Of a stretch of 64,000 nt of DNA, positions 7,745 through 55,530 are shown piece after piece. Origin of the DNA: Gammaproteobacteria bacterium (lineage in GTDB: Bacteria > Pseudomonadota > Gammaproteobacteria > Steroidobacterales > GCA-2729495); NCBI GenBank assembly GCA_020851975.1, contig JADZBS010000034.1, forward strand, positions 26,165 through 90,164, given 5' to 3'. The position numbers and the translations under genes are program-made. The stretch's first letter is position 1; each line of letters opens with the position of its first letter. Under the pieces are notes generated by a model. It was not told the DNA's origin. It saw only the letters and a list, made by a program, of their open reading frames with translations, and did not search any database.

Positions 7745-9267
7745 CAGGCGTCGCCCCGCAATTCGCGAAAGCGCAGGAGTTCGGTCAGCCGGTAGCCGGT
7801 GTAGCGGCCGAGCAGCAGTGTGGCGGCGAGCGCCACCAGCAGCAGTTCGGGAAAGACGAACACCAGGTGTTCGACGAGCGCCAGCCCCATGATCAGGTAG
7901 CAGGTGGCAGCCACCAGCAGGCTGCCCAGGCCCTGCTTGATGGCGTCGCCCGGCCCGCGCTCCTCCCAGACAATCGACATCCGCTCGATGGTCATGGTCA
8001 TGATGACCATCGGGAACAGGCCCACGGACAGCCCGATCTCGAAACCCAGCCGGTGGCTGAGCAGGCTCACCAGGACCATCAGCAACACGACGATCGTCAG
8101 CACCGCGGCCAGGCGCGGCACCAGCAGCAGGCGCAGTTTCTCCATGTAGAAGCGGATCGACAGGCCGATGAAGACCAGCACCGAGAACAGCAGCACGCCC
8201 CACAGCAACTGGGTTTCGCGGAAGGCCAGCGCGATCAGCACCGGCATGAACGTGCCGAAGGTCTGCACACCGATCACGTTGCGCAGGAGCACCACCAGCA
8301 ATGCCCCGACCGGCACCGCCAGCAGCACGCCATAGACCGCCTGGCTTTGTATGGGCAGCGCGAACAGCGAGAACTCCGCTACCCCGTCCTGATGCGCCTC
8401 GGCGCGCCGGCGCGCGACGATGATCGGGTCGGCGACGCTGCTGTGAATGGAGGTCGTGATGTCGACGTCATTGCCACCATCGACCTGGACCACCGGCTCC
8501 TCGCCCCGCCACCAGATCAGGAAATCGGCAGGCAGCCCCTCGTTGCCCGTGACAGGGTCGAAGTACAGCCAGCGCTCGCCGTCGTGGACCTCGAGCCACG
8601 GCTGCATCTCGGCGCTGCGCTCGCGTTCGGCCATGCGCACCCCATGCAGGAGGCGCGCCGGGATGCTCGCTGCGGCAAGCACGGTCATGGCGGTGCGGGC
8701 CCTGTCGACGGCGGCCGGGGCATCGCCGAGGAGCAGCTCGATGTCCTGGTCGCCGCCCGGCCGGGCCAGGCGTTTCAGCAGCTCGGCGGTGAACGAAGCC
8801 GGGTCCGCGGACTGGCCGCGAACGCGCTCGACCAGCATCTCCATCGCGGTATTGAACGGCTCGGCGAGCTTGGGCACCGGCGGGAACGGCGGCGTGGTGT
8901 CACTCTCCTGGCGCACCGGGTCCCGATACACGACCACGCGATAATAGAGTGCCTGCGGGCCCTCGGCATGGCGCACGGCCCACTGCACCTGGCGCCCGCC
9001 GCTCACGTAGGGCGTGGTGAAGCCGAAGCCGCGCGAGACGAAGTTCTCGTCGAGGATGGCGAACCCCGGGGTGAGGCCCGGGATGAAGAGGCTCGCCTTC
9101 ACCGGCCCCGGCGCGGCATCGAAGGCGAGCCTGACCTCCACGGTCCAGATCTGCGCCTGGGCATCCGGCCACACGGGATAGCCGAGGAAGCGCACCTTGT
9201 AGGCGAACAGCCCGAGCCCGAGGGCTGCGAGCACCGCCGCCAACATCACCACCTTGAACCTGGACAT
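7744..9267 (-). CDS. Inactive transglutaminase fused to seven TM helices (UUP1/7TM transglutaminase family)
   Basis: N-terminal TM anchor, periplasmic domain, degenerate transglutaminase core (SIPARLLHGV...MQPWLEVHDGERWLYFDPVTG) and a C-terminal multi-TM region with RNVIGVQTFGTFMPVLIALAFRETQLLWG. Confidence 0.85.
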   Translation of the reverse strand: MSRFKVVMLAAVLAALGLGLFAYKVRFLGYPVWPDAQAQIWTVEVRLAFDAAPGPVKASLFIPGLTPGFAILDENFVSRGFGFTTPYVSGGRQVQWAVRHAEGPQALYYRVVVYRDPVRQESDTTPPFPPVPKLAEPFNTAMEMLVERVRGQSADPASFTAELLKRLARPGGDQDIELLLGDAPAAVDRARTAMTVLAAASIPARLLHGVRMAERERSAEMQPWLEVHDGERWLYFDPVTGNEGLPADFLIWWRGEEPVVQVDGGNDVDITTSIHSSVADPIIVARRRAEAHQDGVAEFSLFALPIQSQAVYGVLLAVPVGALLVVLLRNVIGVQTFGTFMPVLIALAFRETQLLWGVLLFSVLVFIGLSIRFYMEKLRLLLVPRLAAVLTIVVLLMVLVSLLSHRLGFEIGLSVGLFPMVIMTMTIERMSIVWEERGPGDAIKQGLGSLLVAATCYLIMGLALVEHLVFVFPELLLVALAATLLLGRYTGYRLTELLRFRELRGDA

Positions 9268-9312
9268 GCCCCCATAGTCTGCCAGAGAGCGAAGGGGGCC
9301 ACGACCGCCGGA

Positions 9313-10623
9313 TCAGGCGGCGGTACCAACCAGGGCTTCGACTTCGTCGGGATCGCGGGCGAGCGCCTGTGTCAGGACCTCGTGGCCATCGCGCGTGATC
9401 AGTACATCGTCCTCGATGCGCACGCCAATCCCCTGCCAGCGCGCGGGTATCCCCCGGGTCCCCGGCGGTATGTAGATGCCCGGCTCCACGGTGAGCGCCA
9501 TGCCGGGCTCGAGCACCCGCCACTGCTCGCCCACCTTGTAGTCGCCGACGTCGTGCACGTCCATCCCGAGCCAGTGCCCCGTGCGGTGCATGAAGAACTG
9601 GCGGTAGGAACCGCTGCGCCTGATCGCGGCCACGCTGCCCTCGAGCAGCCCGAGGCGGCGCAGCCCGCGGGCAATGACGCCGACGGCCGCCTCGTGCGGC
9701 TCGTCCCAGTGGTTGCCCGGCAGGACGGCGGCGAGCGCAGCGGCATGCGCCTCCAGGACGATCTCGTAGATCGCCCGTTGCGCGGCGCTGAAGCTGCCGC
9801 CCACCGGATAGGTGCGCGTGACGTCGGAGGCATAGAAATCGTGTTCACACCCGGCGTCGACCAGCAGCAGGTCGCCCTCGCGCATCTGCCGCCCGTTGGT
9901 CGTGTAATGCAGTACACAGGCATTCGGGCCGGAGCCGACGATCGGCAGGTACGACGGGCGCATCCCGTGGCGGCGGAACTCGTGGAGGAATTCGGCCTCG
10001 ATCTCGTACTCGTAGAGGCCCGGCCGGCAGAAGGCCATGGCGCGCCGATGCGCACCGACCGCCACGGCAGCCGCCCGGCGCATGGCCGACACCTCGGCCC
10101 GGCTCTTGTACAGCCGCAGGTCGTGCAGCAGGTGATCGAGCGCGATGAATTCGTCCGGCGTGTGGGTTCCCGGGCTGCCACGGTTGCGCAGCGCCGTCAC
10201 CCAGCCGATGAGCCGGGCATCGAACTCCGGATGGGCACCGATCGTGTAGTAGACCCGTTCGGCCTGCTCGATGATGCCGGGCAGGATGTCCTCGACATCG
10301 CCGATCGGGAAGGCATCGTCGGCACCGTAGGCAGTCACGGCCTGCTCCGGCCCTGCGCGTGCACCGTCCCAGGCCTCGCGCTGGGGATCGCGCTCGCGGC
10401 AGAACAGGATGTACTCACCCCCCGGACGGCCCGGTGCCAGCACGGCGATGGCCTCCGGCTCGACGAAGCCCGTGATGTAGTAGAAGTCGCTGTCCTGGCG
10501 GTAGGGGTACTCGATGTCGCGGCTGCGCAGCTTGGCTGGCGAAGCCGGCAATACGCCGACGCCGCCACGCCCGATCATGCGCATCAACTGGCGACGCCGC
10601 TTGCCGAATTCAGCCGGGTTCAC
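9313..10623 (-). CDS. pepP: Xaa-Pro aminopeptidase (aminopeptidase P)
   Basis: VNPAEFGKRRRQLMRMIG start; DSDFYYITGF; metallopeptidase motifs LLVDAGCEHDFYASDVTRTYP, HRTGHWLGMDVHDVG, MALTVEPGIY. Confidence 0.93.
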   Translation of the reverse strand: MNPAEFGKRRRQLMRMIGRGGVGVLPASPAKLRSRDIEYPYRQDSDFYYITGFVEPEAIAVLAPGRPGGEYILFCRERDPQREAWDGARAGPEQAVTAYGADDAFPIGDVEDILPGIIEQAERVYYTIGAHPEFDARLIGWVTALRNRGSPGTHTPDEFIALDHLLHDLRLYKSRAEVSAMRRAAAVAVGAHRRAMAFCRPGLYEYEIEAEFLHEFRRHGMRPSYLPIVGSGPNACVLHYTTNGRQMREGDLLLVDAGCEHDFYASDVTRTYPVGGSFSAAQRAIYEIVLEAHAAALAAVLPGNHWDEPHEAAVGVIARGLRRLGLLEGSVAAIRRSGSYRQFFMHRTGHWLGMDVHDVGDYKVGEQWRVLEPGMALTVEPGIYIPPGTRGIPARWQGIGVRIEDDVLITRDGHEVLTQALARDPDEVEALVGTAA

Positions 10624-10633
10624 GCGCGGCTGA

Positions 10634-11215
10634 TCAGTGCACGCGCCCGGCGGCCAGCGCGCGGCGCAGCTCGTACAACTCGTCGAACAGCAACTGGGCG
10701 CTGACACGCACGAACTCGACGAGTTCGGTGTAGGCAGCCTCGGCCTGTGCATCGCTCTCGTCGGCACCGAGCCGCAGACGGGTGATCTCGGCGAAGTCCG
10801 TCATGATCTCGCGCGGCGTGTCGGCCCCGAGCACCTCGTGGGCCGCCTGCCCGCCGGCGGCTTCCCCGAGGCCATGCATGAAGCCTGCACACCAGCCGGC
10901 CAGTGCCTCGGCCCGGATCGCGAGCGGCTGGTCGTCGGGCGGCAACAGCGGCAGGAAACTCATGTCGCCGGCATCGAGGGCGGCACGGGTGGCCACGGCG
11001 AGTTCGCCGAGCAGTCGCGCATCGGCCGACTCCGGACCCGACCCGGCCGGCGCCGATGCCAGCAGGCCGGCGACCCACACGGTGCCCGCCCGTTCGCCGA
11101 GGATGCACACCAGACCGCAGAAACTGCCGTGAGCCTCCGTCGCGCCGTCACCGGCGCCAAGCTGGCGCAGGGCATGGTCCACGAGTTCGAAGCTGGGCAC
11201 GGGCGCGACGTCCAT
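10634..11215 (-). CDS. UPF0149 (YgfB-like) family protein
   Basis: 193 aa, start FELVDHALRQLGAGDGATEAHGSFCGLVCI; gene lies next to pepP as is typical for YgfB. Confidence 0.85.
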   Translation of the reverse strand: MDVAPVPSFELVDHALRQLGAGDGATEAHGSFCGLVCILGERAGTVWVAGLLASAPAGSGPESADARLLGELAVATRAALDAGDMSFLPLLPPDDQPLAIRAEALAGWCAGFMHGLGEAAGGQAAHEVLGADTPREIMTDFAEITRLRLGADESDAQAEAAYTELVEFVRVSAQLLFDELYELRRALAAGRVH

Positions 11216-11292
11216 GAAACGCGACTATCCTAGCATCCGGTCGCCGCAGCCGTGCAATTGACCATGGCCGGACCGGGAACTATATTCGCCCC

Positions 11293-11523
11293 ATGTCGGA
11301 TGGCAGCGAAAAATCCTTTGGCGACGAGCTCGAGCGGCTCGGCAAACGCCTCGACGACCTCGTCGTCGTCTGCGGCCAGCTGAAGGAGGAGAACCGCTCC
11401 CTGCGCCAGCGCCAGGACGCCCTGATCGCCGAGCGGGCGAACCTGCTGCAGAAAAACGAGCAGGTCCGGGCACGGGTGGAAGCAATGATCGGGCGCCTGA
11501 AGGGCATGGAGCACGGAGCATGA
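11293..11523 (+). CDS. Small coiled-coil protein (TIGR02449-like, upstream of zapA)
   Basis: 76-aa heptad-rich protein (LERLGKRLDDLVVVCGQLKEENRSLRQRQDALIAERANLLQKNEQVRARVEAMIGRL); stop overlaps zapA start (ATGA). Confidence 0.75.
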   Translation: MSDGSEKSFGDELERLGKRLDDLVVVCGQLKEENRSLRQRQDALIAERANLLQKNEQVRARVEAMIGRLKGMEHGA

Positions 11524-11837
11524 GCGAAGCCGCGCGCGTCAACATCCGCATCCTGGAGAAGGAGTACCAGGTCGCCTGCCCCCCGGAGGAACGCGCTGCG
11601 CTGCTCGATTCCGCCGAGTTGCTGAACAACCGGATGCGCGAGATCCGCGATAGCGGGCGGGTCGTGGGGCTGGAGCGTATCGCAGTGATGGCGGCGCTGA
11701 ACATCGCCAACGACCTGATCCGCTCGCGCGATCGTGGCGAGGTGCTGGAAACCAGGGCCAAGGCGAAGGTCCGCGCCATGCGCGAGCGTGTCGAAGGCGT
11801 CCTGCACGCCGGCGCCGGCCAGCAGCTCGAAATCTGA
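11520..11837 (+). CDS. zapA: Cell division protein ZapA
   Basis: 105 aa; VNIRILEKEYQVACPPEERAALLDSAELLNNRMREIR; directly upstream of 6S RNA and the 5-FCL gene. Confidence 0.9.
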   Translation: MSEAARVNIRILEKEYQVACPPEERAALLDSAELLNNRMREIRDSGRVVGLERIAVMAALNIANDLIRSRDRGEVLETRAKAKVRAMRERVEGVLHAGAGQQLEI

Positions 11838-11892
11838 TCTGCCCGGCGCGGCAAAGCACGCCATCGGTCGCATTTTTCCCCGGCCACGGTCG

Positions 11893-11898
11893 TATAAT
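11893..11898 (+). promoter_or_regulatory. Probable -10 box (TATAAT) of the 6S RNA promoter
   Basis: Perfect TATAAT about 8 bp upstream of the predicted 6S RNA 5' end. Confidence 0.55.
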
Positions 11899-11905
11899 CG
11901 ACCGT

Positions 11906-12090
11906 GGCGTCTCCTGCGGTGTTCGAGAAGAGTTGACTGCCTTCGACCCTTAAATGCACTGCAGGGATCAAGGCCTGTCGGCAGCTTTGTGCAATACCGC
12001 CTCGAGCGGGCAGCCTGCTCTGCCACGGCCGATCCCACCTTTCGCTCGGGTCCGAGAGCGACGGCTCGATACGGCACAGGCGGGAGCGCC
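11906..12090 (+). ncRNA. ssrS: 6S RNA
   Basis: 185-nt non-coding stretch between zapA and the 5-FCL gene (conserved 6S location). Closing ends GGCGTCTCCTGC...GCGGGAGCGCC pair; internal blocks such as CGAGAAGAGTTGACTGCCTTCGACCCTTAAA and TCCGAGAGCGACGGC resemble gammaproteobacterial 6S RNA. Confidence 0.85.
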
Positions 12091-12123
12091 ATCCTTGCCG
12101 GCCCACCACCATCCGGTGGACCC

Positions 12124-12693
12124 ATGACGCGGCCCGGCGCCGCCATCCGCAGCCGCCGCGCCGCGCTGCCGGCAGCGGAGATCGCCCGCCGCTCGCTCGC
12201 CATCGCCCGATGCGCCTGGTCCCTGCCGGCGCTGGCGCGGAGCCAGCGCATCGCCTGTTACCTGGCGGTCGGTGGCGAGGTGGATTGCGCGCCGATCATC
12301 GCGTCGGCACTGGCCCGCGGGCGGCGCATCTACCTCCCCATCCTGCATCACGGCCACCTGGTCTTTGCGCCCTGGTCGCCCGGCGAGCCACTGGTCGCCA
12401 ACCGTTTCGGGATCCCCGAACCGCGGGCCGCGCACACCGGGTGGCTGCGCGCCACGCAGCTCGACGTCGTGCTCGCACCGCTGGTCGCCTTCGACGCAGA
12501 AGGCCACCGGCTCGGCATGGGTGGCGGTTACTACGACCGCAGCCTCGCCTTCACGCGCCGGCGCGGGTCATGGCGAAAGCCGCAATTCATCGGCCTCGCC
12601 TACGATTTCCAGCAGGTGCCGGCCGTACCGGTGCGCCACTGGGACGTACCGCTGCACGCCGCCGTGACCGAGAGTCGCACGTTGCACTTCTGA
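12124..12693 (+). CDS. 5-formyltetrahydrofolate cyclo-ligase
   Basis: 190 codons; motifs RRIYLPI, LVAFDAEGHRLGMGGGYYDRSLAF; downstream of 6S RNA. Confidence 0.92.
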   Translation: MTRPGAAIRSRRAALPAAEIARRSLAIARCAWSLPALARSQRIACYLAVGGEVDCAPIIASALARGRRIYLPILHHGHLVFAPWSPGEPLVANRFGIPEPRAAHTGWLRATQLDVVLAPLVAFDAEGHRLGMGGGYYDRSLAFTRRRGSWRKPQFIGLAYDFQQVPAVPVRHWDVPLHAAVTESRTLHF

Positions 12694-12905
12694 CTCCGGA
12701 CATGCGTGCACTGCCGATCCGCGCCGGTCACTCACGCGCGTGAGAAGTCATCCTCGATCACGATGCGACCCGTCGCATCGTGACGACGCGCACTCCCCTC
12801 CGGATGGCGTCGCAGGAAATCTGTGGAGCCCATCACTGTAATCACTGGAATTTTGATTTCGGTTGTATATACTCAACCGCGGTTAACCCCGACATGGAGA
12901 CCATC

Positions 12906-12980
12906 ATGGCTAAGAAGACTGCTTCGAAGAAGAAGGCTACGAAGAAGAAGGCCAAGAAGAAGGCCAAGAAGAAGAAGTAG
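12906..12980 (+). CDS. Lysine-rich 24-aa peptide (MAKKTASKKKATKKKAKKKAKKKK), H1-tail-like
   Basis: Good SD (GGAG, 6-nt spacing) before ATG at 12906; 15 of 24 residues are Lys, rest Ala/Thr/Ser plus Met; TATACT-like -10 at 12868-12873; strong hairpins downstream. Contained in ORF 12780..12980. Confidence 0.6.
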   Translation: MAKKTASKKKATKKKAKKKAKKKK

Positions 12981-12997
12981 CTGGAGACAGCTGGAAC

Positions 12998-13079
12998 GCG
13001 GGAACCGGCAACGGTTCCCGCGGCTTCCTGAAACAGGAAGTGACAGTCGAATGTGCCCGCCTCCGGCGGGCACATTTCT
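12998..13079 (+). terminator. Hairpin cluster ending in a rho-independent-like terminator
   Basis: GCGGGAACCG-gcaa-CGGTTCCCGC (12998-13021), CTTCCTG-aaa-CAGGAAG (13024-13040), ATGTGCCCGCC-tcc-GGCGGGCACAT followed by TTCTAT (13051-13079). Confidence 0.7.
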
Positions 13080-13179
13080 ATCCGGGGTCTGCAACGCTGC
13101 CGGCATCGGGCGAGCCGCGAACCGCACGGACGCTATACTGCAGGGGCCCGACAGGCAGCACGGCGAGACGGAGCGACGC

Positions 13180-13842
13180 ATGGACCAGGCCGAGAAGAAA
13201 CGCCAGGCGGCGAAAGCCGCGGCTGCTTTCGTCGAGCCGGGCATCCGCCTCGGCGTGGGGACCGGCTCCACCGTCAACTGCTTCATCGACGAACTGGTAC
13301 CGTTGCGCGGACGCATCAGTGCCGTCGTGGCCAGTTCGCGCGAGACCGAGCAACGCCTGCGGGCGGCGGGTTTCGAGGTATCCGACCTCGCCGAAACCGG
13401 TGACCTCGACCTCTACGTCGACGGCGCCGACGAAGCCAACAAGCACTTCCACCTGATCAAGGGCGGTGGCGGTGCGCTGACCCGGGAAAAGGTCCTCGCC
13501 GCTGCCTCCCGCCGCTTCGTCTGCATCATCGACGACAGCAAGTGGGTCGCGGTCCTCGGCCGCTTCCCCCTGCCCGTGGAGGTCATCCCGATGGCCCAGT
13601 CCTATGTGTCACGCCAGATGGTGCGTGCCCGCGGCCAGCCCATCCTGCGCAAGGGTTTCGTCACGGACAACGGCAACGCCATCATCGACGTCCACAACCT
13701 GTCGATCACCAACCCGCCGGACGTGGAGTCTCGCTTCAACCAGATCCCCGGCGTGGTGACGGTCGGCATCTTCGCGCAGCGCCCCGCCGACGTGATCCTG
13801 ATCGCCGACGACTCCGGCGTGAAGCGGCTCGACCGGCGCTGA
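13180..13842 (+). CDS. rpiA: Ribose-5-phosphate isomerase A
   Basis: LGVGTGSTVNCFID, DLYVDGADEAN, LIKGGGGALTREK, FVTDNGNAIIDV. Confidence 0.95.
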   Translation: MDQAEKKRQAAKAAAAFVEPGIRLGVGTGSTVNCFIDELVPLRGRISAVVASSRETEQRLRAAGFEVSDLAETGDLDLYVDGADEANKHFHLIKGGGGALTREKVLAAASRRFVCIIDDSKWVAVLGRFPLPVEVIPMAQSYVSRQMVRARGQPILRKGFVTDNGNAIIDVHNLSITNPPDVESRFNQIPGVVTVGIFAQRPADVILIADDSGVKRLDRR

Positions 13843-13847
13843 AACGC

Positions 13848-13873
13848 CGAGGCCCGCCGTGGGGCGGGCCTCG
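13848..13873 (+). terminator. Hairpin terminator after rpiA
   Basis: GAGGCCCGCC-gtgg-GGCGGGCCTC stem-loop just after the stop codon; no long T tract. Confidence 0.5.
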
Positions 13874-13885
13874 CATCGTCGGATC

Positions 13886-13959
13886 TGGCTGGGGGACTAG
13901 GATTCGAACCTAGGTTAACGGAGTCAGAGTCCGCTGTCCTACCACTAGACGATCCCCCA
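13886..13959 (-). tRNA. tRNA-Gln (anticodon CTG), CCA encoded
   Basis: Minus strand TGGGGGATCGTCTAGTGGTAGGACAGCGGACTCTGACTCCGTTAACCTAGGTTCGAATCCTAGTCCCCCAGCCA: acceptor TGGGGGA/TCCCCCA, T-loop GGTTCGAATCC, anticodon loop CTCTGAC. Confidence 0.93.
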
Positions 13960-13997
13960 CTGATCGGTCGTGGACCGCCGGCACCGCCGGCAGCGGA

Positions 13998-14390
13998 TCA
14001 ACGCTTCGAGTACTGTGTGGCGCGGCGGGCCTTGCGCACGCCGACCTTCTTGCGTTCCACCTCGCGGGCATCCCGGGTCACGAACCCGGCCCGGCGCAGG
14101 GGGCTGCGCAGGGTCTCGTCGTAGGCCATCAGCGCCCGGGTCAGGCCGTGGCGGATCGCGCCCGCCTGGCCGGTGGTGCCGCCACCCTCGACCGATACCT
14201 CGACGTCGAAGCGGGTGGTGAGTTCGGTCAGCTCCAGCGGCTGGCGCACGATCATGCGCGCCGTCTTGCGACCGAAGAACTCGTCGAGCGAGCGGTCGTT
14301 GATGGTGATCGTGCCCTTGCCGGGCCGCAGATAGACGCGCGCCGTCGAGCTCTTGCGCCGGCCGGTCCCGTAGTAAGCCTGAGTTGCCAT
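13998..14390 (-). CDS. rpsI: 30S ribosomal protein S9
   Basis: 130 aa; [35 protein letters not shown]-terminal [11 protein letters not shown]. Confidence 0.97.
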
Positions 14391-14413
14391 GTCCGTCTGC
14401 CTGTCGTGTCTGA

Positions 14414-14842
14414 TCAGATGTCCAGCGGCTGCGGCTGCTGGGCGGCGTGGTCGTGCGTGGCACCCGGAAACACCTTGAGCTTGCGCAACATGGCGGCACC
14501 GAGGCTGTTCTTGGGCAGCATCCCCTTGACGGCGATGCGCAGGGCGCGGTCGGGGGCCCGGGCCAGGAGTTTCTCCAGGCTCTCGGTCTTGAGATGGCCG
14601 ACGTACCCGGTATAGCGGTGGTAGGTCTTGTTCTTGAGCTTGTTGCCCGTCACGCGGATGTGCGCGGCATTGACCACGACGATGTAGTCGCCGGTATCCA
14701 CGTGCGGCGTATAGATGGGCTTGTGCTTGCCGCGCAGGCGGCGGGCCAGTTCCGTGGCGAGGCGCCCGAGCGTCTTGCCCTCGGCGTTCACCAGGTACCA
14801 GCCGCGCTTGACCTCGTCGGGCTTGGCAGAAATCGTTCTCAT
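14414..14842 (-). CDS. rplM: 50S ribosomal protein L13
   Basis: [41 protein letters not shown]; upstream of rpsI. Confidence 0.97.
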
Positions 14843-14982
14843 GGGTGCTGCTTTGAGTGTCCGACCCGCGCCGACCGCGGGCACAAGGGCGGCGATTTTA
14901 TAGACCCGCCGGGCCATTTTCAACGCGAATCCAGGTACCTGCCGGCACCTGCCAGGGCCCCGGACGGCACGCCAAGCCCTTG

Positions 14983-15747
14983 TCAGAACTTGTATTCCAG
15001 GGAAATCGAGGTCTGCGTGTCGGTCTTGTCGATTCCGGGCAGGACATCCGTGTTGTGCTTCACGAGGTAGCCCAGCACCAGGCCGATGTTGCCGACCACG
15101 GCCACCTTGAGCTCCGTCAGGGACTCGATGTAGGTGTTGTCCGAGCCCATGCTGGTCGCCAGCGTCTGGCTGAACAACGCCGTCGGGCTGATGTGCCAGT
15201 GATAGTCGCCGCCCGCACGGGCCACCATCTCGTTCACGTCGCGCTCGGAGGAACTCAGCGGCGGATTCGGAGGCTCGGGCTGGCGCAGCTTCGACTGCGT
15301 GGCACCAACGCCGAGTTCCAGGTTCAGTTCCTGCGTGGCCGAGCGGAACACCCGCCAGCCGAGGCCGGCCACCTCGTAGATCTGGTGGTCGTAGGCGCTG
15401 AAGCGGTCCTTGTTGTACTCCGCCAGGCCGAACGTATAGAACTTCTCGGCGAGGTCGTACCTGGTCTTGATCTGGCCCTTGTAGGCCTCCGCGCTGGTTT
15501 CGTCGTCCTGGCTGGCCCCGAGCGCAGTGGCGAGCGCGCTGTGATGCCAGCGGCCCCGATCATGGAAGACTTCGCCCTTGAAATTGGCGTTCGTGCTGTC
15601 GGAGTTGCCGTTGACGGCGACGTAGCCGGCCGCCACGCTCCCCGACCAGCCCGCGGGTGCCGCAGCACCCTTTTCACCATGCGCCAGGACGGCGCCCTGC
15701 CAGACGAGCGCCGCCAGGCCGGCCATCGCCGGCAATACCTTGTTCAT
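14983..15747 (-). CDS. DUF481 family outer-membrane-type protein with signal peptide
   Basis: [27 protein letters not shown] signal; [35 protein letters not shown]... ends SISLEYKF (aromatic C-terminus). Confidence 0.85.
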
Positions 15748-15914
15748 CGATGATCCTCCCCGTCCGGAATGCCTGCCGACGTCCCGGTGTTCGTCCCGGG
15801 ACCGGTTCGAGGCGCGCCACTCTAACCGGACCCCACCGGGCGGGCAAATCCGCACCCGGCACGACTGCGCCGGGTGCCGCCGCTCCCGGGCGGCCGACGC
15901 AGCGCGCGCGGCCC

Positions 15915-15930
15915 TGTGACCTGGCTCACA
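15915..15930. promoter_or_regulatory. Perfect CRP/Vfr-type operator TGTGACCTGGCTCACA
   Basis: Exact TGTGA-N6-TCACA palindrome in the divergent intergenic region upstream of crp; TTGACA lies at 15946-15951. Confidence 0.8.
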
Positions 15931-16088
15931 AATCCACAAACAGACTTGACATACTTCTGCGCCTTGCCCCTTACACTGCAAGGCAATTGAACATATCGCC
16001 CGGTCACGCATCTCGCGGCGAGTGTAGATTCCGGATGTTGTCGAGTTGGGTTGTTCCTGAGTTGTTGTCCCCGAGGGGAGGGTGAACG

Positions 16089-16784
16089 ATGTCTACGAAC
16101 GGAAAAGGGCTGAGCGCGATCCCGGCGATCAGCAGGTTCCTGACCTACTGCCGCGTGCGCACGGTCCCGGGCAAGACGGTGATGGTCCACGCCGGCGACA
16201 CACCCGACACGCTGTATTACATCTGCAGCGGGTCCGTGGAAGTGATGATCGAGGATGAGGACGGCAACGAGATGGTGCTGGCCTACCTCAACCGCGGCCA
16301 GTTCTTCGGCGAAATGGGCCTGTTCAACGAACAGCCGAGCCGCAGCGCCTGGGTCCGCACCCGCGTCTCCTCGGAGATCGCCGAGATGACCTACCAGCGC
16401 TTCCGCCAGATCGCCAGCGAGAGCCCGGGACTGGTCTTCGAGCTGGCCACGCAGATGGCCACGCGTCTGACCCGAACCAACCGCAAGCTCTCCGATCTGG
16501 CCTTCGTGGACGTCACGGGCCGTGTCGCCCATGCGATCCGCGACCTGTGCAACGAGCCCGATGCCATGACCCATCCGCAGGGCATGCAGATCAAGGTCAG
16601 CCGCCAGGAGCTGTCGCGCCTGGTCGGATGCTCCCGCGAGATGGCTGGACGCGTGCTCAAGGTGCTCGAGGACGAGGGCCTGGTGTCGGCCAGCGGCAAG
16701 ACCATCGTCGTATACAACGTCCGGCCCCAGCCGCGCATCCGCGCGGTGCCCGAACCCGCGGCGGCTGCCGCCGGCGGGCAGTAA
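16089..16784 (+). CDS. crp: CRP/Vfr-like cAMP-activated global transcriptional regulator
   Basis: GQFFGEMGLFNEQPSRSAWVRTR cyclic-nucleotide pocket; C-terminal HTH IKVSRQELSRLVGCSREMAGRVLKVLEDEGLVSASGKTIVVY. Confidence 0.92.
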   Translation: MSTNGKGLSAIPAISRFLTYCRVRTVPGKTVMVHAGDTPDTLYYICSGSVEVMIEDEDGNEMVLAYLNRGQFFGEMGLFNEQPSRSAWVRTRVSSEIAEMTYQRFRQIASESPGLVFELATQMATRLTRTNRKLSDLAFVDVTGRVAHAIRDLCNEPDAMTHPQGMQIKVSRQELSRLVGCSREMAGRVLKVLEDEGLVSASGKTIVVYNVRPQPRIRAVPEPAAAAAGGQ

Positions 16785-16793
16785 CCGGGACGA

Positions 16794-17486
16794 TCAGGCG
16801 GTCGCCGCCTGTGCGGCGGCCGCCAGCTCCCGCCTCAGCGCCAGCATGGTGGCCGGGTAGTCGCCGCTGCCGAAGATGGCAGAGCCCGCCACGAACGTAT
16901 CGGCACCGGCTTCGGCGACATCGCGGATGTTGTCCGCCTTGATCCCGCCGTCGACCTCGATGCGCACCTCGCGGCGCAGGGCATCGATGCGCTTGCGGAT
17001 CTGGCGGATCTTGGGCAGCGCGCTCGGGATGAAGGCCTGGCCGCCGAACCCCGGGTTCACCGACATCACCAGCACGAAATCGAGCTTCTCCAGGGTGTAG
17101 TCCAGCCAGCTGATGGGCGTGGCCGGGTTCAGCACCAGGCCGGCCTTGCAGTCGTGACGGCGGATGAGGTCGATGGTGCGATCCACGTGGTCGCTCGCCT
17201 CGGGATGGAAGCTGATCCAGCTCGCCCCGGCCGCGGCGAAATCCTCCACCAGCCGGTCCACGGGCCGGATCATCAGGTGCACGTCGATCGGTGCCTTGAC
17301 GCCGTGGCGTCGAAGCGCCTCGCAGACCAGCGGGCCGACAGTCAGGTTCGGCACGTAATGGTTGTCCATCACGTCGAAATGGATCAGGTCCGCGCCCGCC
17401 GCCAGCACGGCGTCCACCTCGGCACCGAGCCGGGCGAAATCGGCCGACAGGATGGAAGGAGCGATCAGGGCTGGGAGTCGGGCCAC
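16794..17486 (-). CDS. rpe: Ribulose-phosphate 3-epimerase
   Basis: [65 protein letters not shown]. Confidence 0.96.
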
Positions 17487-17529
17487 GTCCGTCGTCCTGT
17501 GATGAAGCCGCCGTGATGGTAGCACGCCG

Positions 17530-18327
17530 CTAGCGCATGCCCCGCGCCTCGCGCACCAGCTCGTAGGCTGCCCGGATCTCGCGCGTGCGCTCGTGCGCGA
17601 TCCCGAGCATGGACTCGGGCAGTCCCCGCGCCGCCTGCTTGTCCGGGTGGTGCTGGTTCATGAGGCGGCGGTAGGCCGTCTTGACCTCACGATCGCTGGC
17701 GCGCGCGTCCACACCGAGCACCTCGTAGGCATCGGCGAGCTTCACCTCGCTGGAAGGCGGGGTGGCTGCGGCGCCGTGAGCACGCCGCGCGCGCAGGATA
17801 GCCTCCAGATGCATGATCACGAGGCGGTTCATCCCGAGCGCGTCGGCGATGCGTCCCAGCAGCTCGCGCTCCGCTGCGCTGACGCTGCCCTTCGCCAGCG
17901 CCAGGTCGACCTCGATCTCCAGGAACAGGCGCAGCAGTTGCGGGTGCCGGCCGCAAGCGCTGCGCAGCCGCCCGACCTGTTCCAGCAGCGGCCAGTCCGC
18001 ACGCTTGCCGGTGTTGAAGAACTCCATGGCGAGGCGGGTCTGCCCCTCGTCGAGGCGCATGCGCTGCATGACTGCACGCGCGGCGTCGATCTCCGCTTCC
18101 GACACCCGGCCGTCGACCTTGGCGAGGTGACCCATCACCATGAAGGTGGTCTCGAAGAATACCCGCTGGCGTTCCACCGCGGAGGTGCCGCCGGGGGCAC
18201 CCGTCCCCGGCCGCACGGCCATGCCGCGGTCGAACTGGTGCCCCAGAATGGCGCCGATTACCGCACCCGGCCAACGCGCCGCCGCATAGCCGAGCACGGC
18301 TCCTGCCACCTTGCCGATCCACGCCAT
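17530..18327 (-). CDS. DjlA-like co-chaperone (TerB-like domain plus J domain)
   Basis: N-terminal glycine-rich membrane segment; TerB-like middle ([20 protein letters not shown]); C-terminal J domain [32 protein letters not shown]. Confidence 0.88.
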
Positions 18328-55478: not shown

Positions 55479-55530
55479 GACTCTCCATGAACAAGGCCGG
55501 GGTAATGCCCGGCCTTGTTCATGGAGAGTC
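55479..55530. repeat. Perfect 23-bp inverted repeat (hairpin/cruciform)
   Basis: GACTCTCCATGAACAAGGCCGGG - gtaatg - CCCGGCCTTGTTCATGGAGAGTC, no mismatch; downstream of the orphan secreted protein. Confidence 0.95.

Follow-up and report, generated by a model that had tools for sequence, protein, structure and literature searches.

The short lysine-rich gene directly upstream of rpiA is, with a probability that we put at about two in three, a monocistronic gene for a minimal member of an order-wide family of orthologous, H1-like, lysine-rich and probably disordered proteins, whose charge suggests nucleic-acid binding. Comparison of the orthologous sequences establishes the orthology, the in-frame change of length, purifying selection on the peptide and the conservation of promoter-like and terminator elements. 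The gene is the short extreme of this family and not an isolated oddity. The H1-like reading of the initial annotation was right in kind; the long orthologues are Lys/Ala-rich proteins of low complexity.

The lysine-rich gene and its locus

The features of the locus are collected in Table 1, with positions counted in the window, which is the whole 64-kb stretch of DNA that was analysed. The ORF starts with the ATG at 12906, ends with the TAG at 12978-12980 and encodes MAKKTASKKKATKKKAKKKAKKKK, where 15 of the 24 residues are lysine and every lysine codon is AAG. Start, length, lysine content and a well-spaced Shine-Dalgarno (SD) sequence had all been given in the initial annotation and were confirmed, the SD being GGAGA. 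No other ORF of the window reaches 40% lysine, with the exception of the 28-aa in-frame extension of the same ORF from an ATG at 12894. This longer start was ruled out because congeners show ACACGG or a gap at the site.

Table 1. Features of the lysine-rich gene and its surroundings in the window
Feature	Position	Strand	Basis
Neighbouring gene fau/ygfA	12124-12693	+	Synteny by tblastn
Promoter-like core, CTGGAATTTT (12845-12854), N8, TTGTATATACT (12863-12873)	12845-12873	+	Order-wide alignment
5' leader with SD GGAGA (12896-12900) and conserved ACCCCGACAYGGAGAC	12874-12905	+	Alignments of nine congeneric loci and of the order
Lysine-rich CDS of 24 aa, H1-like microprotein MAKKTASKKKATKKKAKKKAKKKK	12906-12980	+	Syntenic orthologues, purifying selection
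Hairpin H0, 5 bp, overlapping the stop codon	12979-12992	+	Predicted fold
Hairpin H1, 11 bp, GNRA loop GCAA (GAAA in G008)	12997-13022	+	Alignment, fold
Hairpin H2, 7 bp, variable stem (CTTCCTG/CAGGAAG, CTTCCC/GGGAAG)	13024-13040	+	Alignment, fold
Hairpin H3, 12 bp, followed by TCTATCC, probable intrinsic terminator	13050-13076	+	Order-wide hairpin count
TATACT, possible -10 element of rpiA	13134-13139	+	TATACT, TATAAT or TATCAT at the site in most congeners
Neighbouring gene rpiA	13180-13842	+	Synteny by tblastn

The gene order is zapB-zapA-6S RNA-fau-ORF-rpiA followed by a tRNA, rpsI and rplM on the opposite strand. We take the neighbours to be a 5-formyltetrahydrofolate cyclo-ligase family gene (fau/ygfA) and a ribose-5-phosphate isomerase A family gene (rpiA). 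The 6S RNA (Rfam RF00013) was identified at 11908-12090 with 48.5 bits, slightly above the gathering cut-off of 46.4; as is usual in Gammaproteobacteria, it separates zapA from fau. Directly preceding it, at 11883-11908, is a 10-bp hairpin whose loop contains TATAAT. No publication on the locus of the lysine-rich ORF came up in literature searches.

Conservation and length range in the order

A DNA search with the locus gave matches in 87 of 99 relatives, some of them merely lysine-rich coding sequence elsewhere. Within the order, rpiA was located in 124 of 137 genomes and the upstream DNA was read in a sample of them. Conservation upstream of rpiA, which the initial annotation had proposed to check by tblastn and synteny, was found in 89 genomes of this sample, where a lysine-rich ORF lies directly upstream of rpiA, usually in the arrangement zapB-zapA-6S-fau-X-rpiA. 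Outside the order, 40 genomes representing other families of the class were examined, and none has such an ORF upstream of rpiA. The lysine-rich gene is truly absent in family f13, the small-genome family f14, genus g26 and genomes G125 and G152, whereas in the remaining blanks the contig ends or a run of N intervenes. At four loci (L091, L092 and L095 of genus g26, and L079) no H1-like gene is present, and the slot next to rpiA holds a gene that was recognised by eye as a candidate EVE-domain gene.

All members of the family begin with an MA-K-rich N-terminus. Their length ranges from 15 to 209 aa across the 89 loci (20-195 aa in the first set read) and 32 loci encode 30 aa or fewer, so that the 24-aa peptide, whose small size as a stand-alone product had been regarded as unusual, is one of these 32. 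Three taxonomic groups have short forms: the genus of the window (20-24 aa in eight of nine genomes, the exception being G005 with 57 aa), genus g8 (22-35 aa in 6/6 genomes) and family f11 (15-26 aa in 19/19 genomes). The other families of the order mostly contain members of 75-209 aa. Between relatives, insertions and deletions preserve the frame, and the motifs at both termini are retained along with the stop and the terminator.

A tree of Fau proteins places six changes between short and long forms, one of them involving G015 (L056). In this genome a 104-codon H1-like gene is interrupted by an in-frame TAG after 37 codons, either a nonsense mutation or a sequencing error, and 66 more lysine-rich codons follow. 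Because Fau is a weak marker and the G015 gene is cut by this TAG, the claim is limited to the occurrence of short forms in the three groups, with a probable origin on more than one occasion. Collapse of AAG repeats during assembly was ruled out as the source of the short forms because these were also identified in single-contig genomes: G006 (20 aa), G007 (24 aa) and G084 (22 aa). A run of N lies inside the lysine-rich gene of L066 (G119); repeats of the family may therefore break or be masked in assemblies, and some long members may be misassembled. A search for a longer paralogue within the same genome, run without a positive control, found none.

Selection on the short peptides

A comparison of 12 sister pairs of short genes gave 27 synonymous changes against 5 nonsynonymous ones. 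Under neutrality, about 23% of the changes in these codons should be synonymous (p = 4e-13; p = 4e-9 with a rate of 1/3). All pairs are of equal ORF length, which introduces some bias toward conserved pairs, the excess being large nonetheless. Peptides of 16-17 aa are identical across genomes despite synonymous codon changes; in family f11 the 16-aa peptide MAKAKKKAKKKAAKKK is the same in five genomes, although their codons for it show up to seven synonymous differences. Given this excess and the identical f11 peptide, it is very probable that the short peptides are made and serve the cell, in agreement with the translation proposed for the 24-aa ORF.

The same data bear on the reading of the gene as what is left of a long H1-like gene in decay, or as a chance ORF riding on a conserved promoter. 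The fast change of length in the family and the TAG that cuts the G015 gene at codon 37 would fit such decay, but the 27:5 synonymous excess, the in-frame indels, the identical peptides of 16-17 aa and the conserved stop and C-terminus make it extremely improbable. A frame-disrupted remnant, which the initial annotation had named as one outcome that would count against it, was ruled out by the retained frame, end motifs, stop and terminator.

Comparison with known H1-like proteins

The comparison profiles were Pfam HC2 (PF07382) and NCBIfam NF038052 and NF038053. The 24-aa peptide matched neither the Pfam HC2 and NCBIfam Hc2 profiles nor the Burkholderia H1-like ones. HC2 was matched at E<=0.01 by 2 of 17 members of the family, both of them long (best 9e-8), and, where bit scores are known, below the curated cut-off: the long member G040 scores 37.4 bits with HC2 (cut-off 40) and 20.1 bits with NF038053 (cut-off 80). 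No Pfam domain other than HC2 was found in family members. The similarity to the HC2 profile rests on composition, and only their composition links the long members to bacterial histone H1-like proteins (Hc2, the AlgP tail). The family has the broad H1-like features, namely low-complexity, Lys/Ala-rich sequence without a folded domain.

Hc2 of Chlamydia (hctB), the Hc2-like proteins of Burkholderia and Ralstonia and BpH1 of Bordetella share with this family the Lys/Ala low-complexity repeats and the change of size in frame. Gain and loss of in-frame repeats gives 165-237 aa in Hc2 and 182-206 aa in BpH1 (PMC2848022), ranges within about 1.5-fold, whereas here a polymorphism of repeat number with the frame kept covers 14-fold (15-209 aa) among orthologues that share their syntenic slot, promoter and terminator. 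The family differs also in its KKKA/KKKV units, those of Hc2 being pentamers, and, relative to both Hc2 and BpH1, in its own locus and promoter and in shrinking to 15-24 aa, far under the range reported for them.

The tails of AlgP (AlgR3) and PhaF of Pseudomonas are likewise made of Lys/Ala repeats, and members in family f12 even carry KKPAA units. The repeat number of algP also differs between isolates (PMC9239181). In AlgP a helical N-terminal domain of 124 aa precedes the tail, whereas the present family consists of the tail only: no folded or phasin-like N-terminal domain was identified and the ORFs are basic from residue 2-3. The C-terminal tail of eukaryotic histone H1 and protamine-like basic peptides are similar in composition and charge, with no claim of homology, and the globular domain of eukaryotic H1 is lacking in this family.

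Peptides of 15-24 residues under clear purifying selection make the smallest functional H1-like unit testable with natural variants. ORFs this short are probably too small for the size cut-offs that automatic annotation applies, and databases may therefore lack the short branch of the family.

Proposed function

Nucleic-acid binding is the likeliest activity on the basis of charge. In the genus of the window the repeat-rich coding region is at its short extreme of 20-24 aa, while the promoter, the leader, the N-terminal MAKK..SKKK, the C-terminal KKK[KR] and the terminator have been kept. By analogy with bacterial H1-like tails, a peptide with 15 lysines would bind DNA and/or RNA by charge, and DNA binding has been described for C-terminal fragments of AlgP, its H1-like tail and KPAA peptides (PMC9239181). 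The bound peptide could then pack or shield the nucleic acid, and in the short form many small, weakly bound molecules would replace condensation by one long chain. A polycation of 20-24 aa may be too weak a binder to organise the nucleoid; RNA, ribosomes or polyphosphate may be its targets instead.

A protein of polyphosphate or PHA granules, like AlgP and PhaF, is an improbable alternative. AlgP acts on polyP granules (PMC9239181) and ppk is present in most genomes with the lysine-rich gene, but the PPK1 search gave no match in five gene-bearing genomes (G029, G044, G048, G062 and G116) and a PhaC_N match is absent in many, including G002, G003, G005, G006 and G008. Because of these genomes, a strict polyP or PHA granule role is unlikely to be what members of the family have in common.

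Promoter-like region and leader

The minimal H1-like gene is preceded by a region that was correctly described as AT-rich: the 43 nt upstream of the ORF have 35% GC against 69% in the whole window, and only 0.03% of 43-nt stretches are equally low. The TATACT at 12868-12873 is probably the -10 element of the gene, as the same hexamer is located 36-52 nt 5' of the ATG in 84 of the 89 orthologous loci. The combination TTGCTGGAATTTT-N8-TTGTATATACTC is common to nearly all family members. The consensus of the order is TTGCTGG[AT]ATTTT-N8-TTGTATATACTC and is followed by a conserved leader that ends in the SD. Among 274 genomes spread over the class, the pattern of promoter and leader was matched in two, both from the order of the window.

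A regulon based on the promoter motif was considered and dropped, the genome holding one further exact TTGTATATACT, which is too little. This sole second copy (L132:1501-1511) lies 5' of a gene that probably encodes an exopolysaccharide sugar transferase. A perfect 12-bp inverted repeat, TCACGATGCGAC/GTCGCATCGTGA, with a gap of 2 nt, is located between fau and the promoter (12758-12783); it is not followed by T and is absent in the nearest relative, G004.

Hairpins downstream of the stop codon

Three hairpins of 10, 7 and 11 bp had been reported after the ORF. Hairpins are indeed present there, with number and size set too low: four were identified, of 5, 11, 7 and 12 bp. Only eight distinct perfect hairpins with stems of 10 bp or more and loops of 3-8 occur in the window, two of them 3' of the lysine-rich ORF, and the predicted fold of the 3' region has -67 kcal/mol against -36 in shuffles (z = -8.7). 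In the genus alignment H1 and H3 hardly vary. H1 is near-invariant in eight of the nine congeners and missing in G005, the sole congener with a longer ORF, and H0 is kept as a hairpin while its sequence differs, with pairing in a shifted register.

Across the order, 79 of 89 loci have a hairpin with a perfect stem of 8 bp or longer behind the stop, whereas shuffles, which preserved base composition but not dinucleotides, would give about one. Most of these hairpins are GTGCCCGC/GCGGGCAC, their outer pairs change on both sides and a T run often comes next; stem variants are AAGTGCCCGC, AATATGCCCGC, AAAAGAGCCCGC and GACTGTGCCCGC. This conserved hairpin is a probable intrinsic terminator with H3 as its local version; a terminator scan missed H3 because it requires 5 T in 8. 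The post-stop hairpins would probably end and stabilise a short mRNA. Together with the promoter-like region, the terminator-like hairpin supports the self-contained transcription unit suggested at first.

Within the genus, sequence conservation is higher in the 3' hairpins than in the ORF, and the minimal H1-like account covers these hairpins only as terminator and stabiliser. They could also mean that short-form transcripts act mainly or additionally as a small or protein-binding RNA, the peptide being a partner or a relic. The strong 3' structure, the near-invariant H1 of eight congeners with GNRA loops and the unrelated extra hairpins that g8 and several f11 genomes have directly behind the stop point in this direction; against it are the purifying selection on the peptide, f11 short forms almost without 3' structure and the lack of an Rfam match, as a search of 9000-18000 returned only the 6S RNA and a tRNA and no RNA family at the lysine-rich ORF. 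A rule by which short ORFs carry an extra 3' hairpin was dropped: the test, with shuffles that matched base composition only, not dinucleotides, gave p = 2e-5 counting genomes and p = 0.33 counting genera. With this genus-level value, the dual-function RNA is therefore kept as a minority reading, unlikely but with some weight. Also unlikely is a combination in which the short-form lineages have both a minimal H1-like peptide and a conserved structured 3' RNA; hairpins of unrelated sequence would have been acquired separately in the genus of the window, g8 and parts of f11, and shrinkage of the protein would accompany a takeover of function by the RNA.

Finally, the lysine-rich ORF is short and shares its strand with rpiA, from which it is separated by hairpins and a terminator; this arrangement would fit an attenuation leader peptide, in which ribosome stalling on lysine codons selects between termination and read-through into rpiA. 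This is very improbable, as orthologues reach 209 aa and the ORF is not conserved as short, the hairpins are local, with no competing anti-terminator in the predicted fold, and rpiA is not a lysine gene; the locus thus has neither the anti-terminator nor the matching pathway of such leaders. A candidate -10-like element of rpiA's own also speaks against it. The evidence for this element, the TATACT upstream of rpiA as a possible -10 of its own promoter, is weak. Elsewhere in the window, a perfect 23-bp hairpin, GACTCTCCATGAACAAGGCCGGG/CCCGGCCTTGTTCATGGAGAGTC, was identified at 55479-55530 and is by far the longest perfect one.
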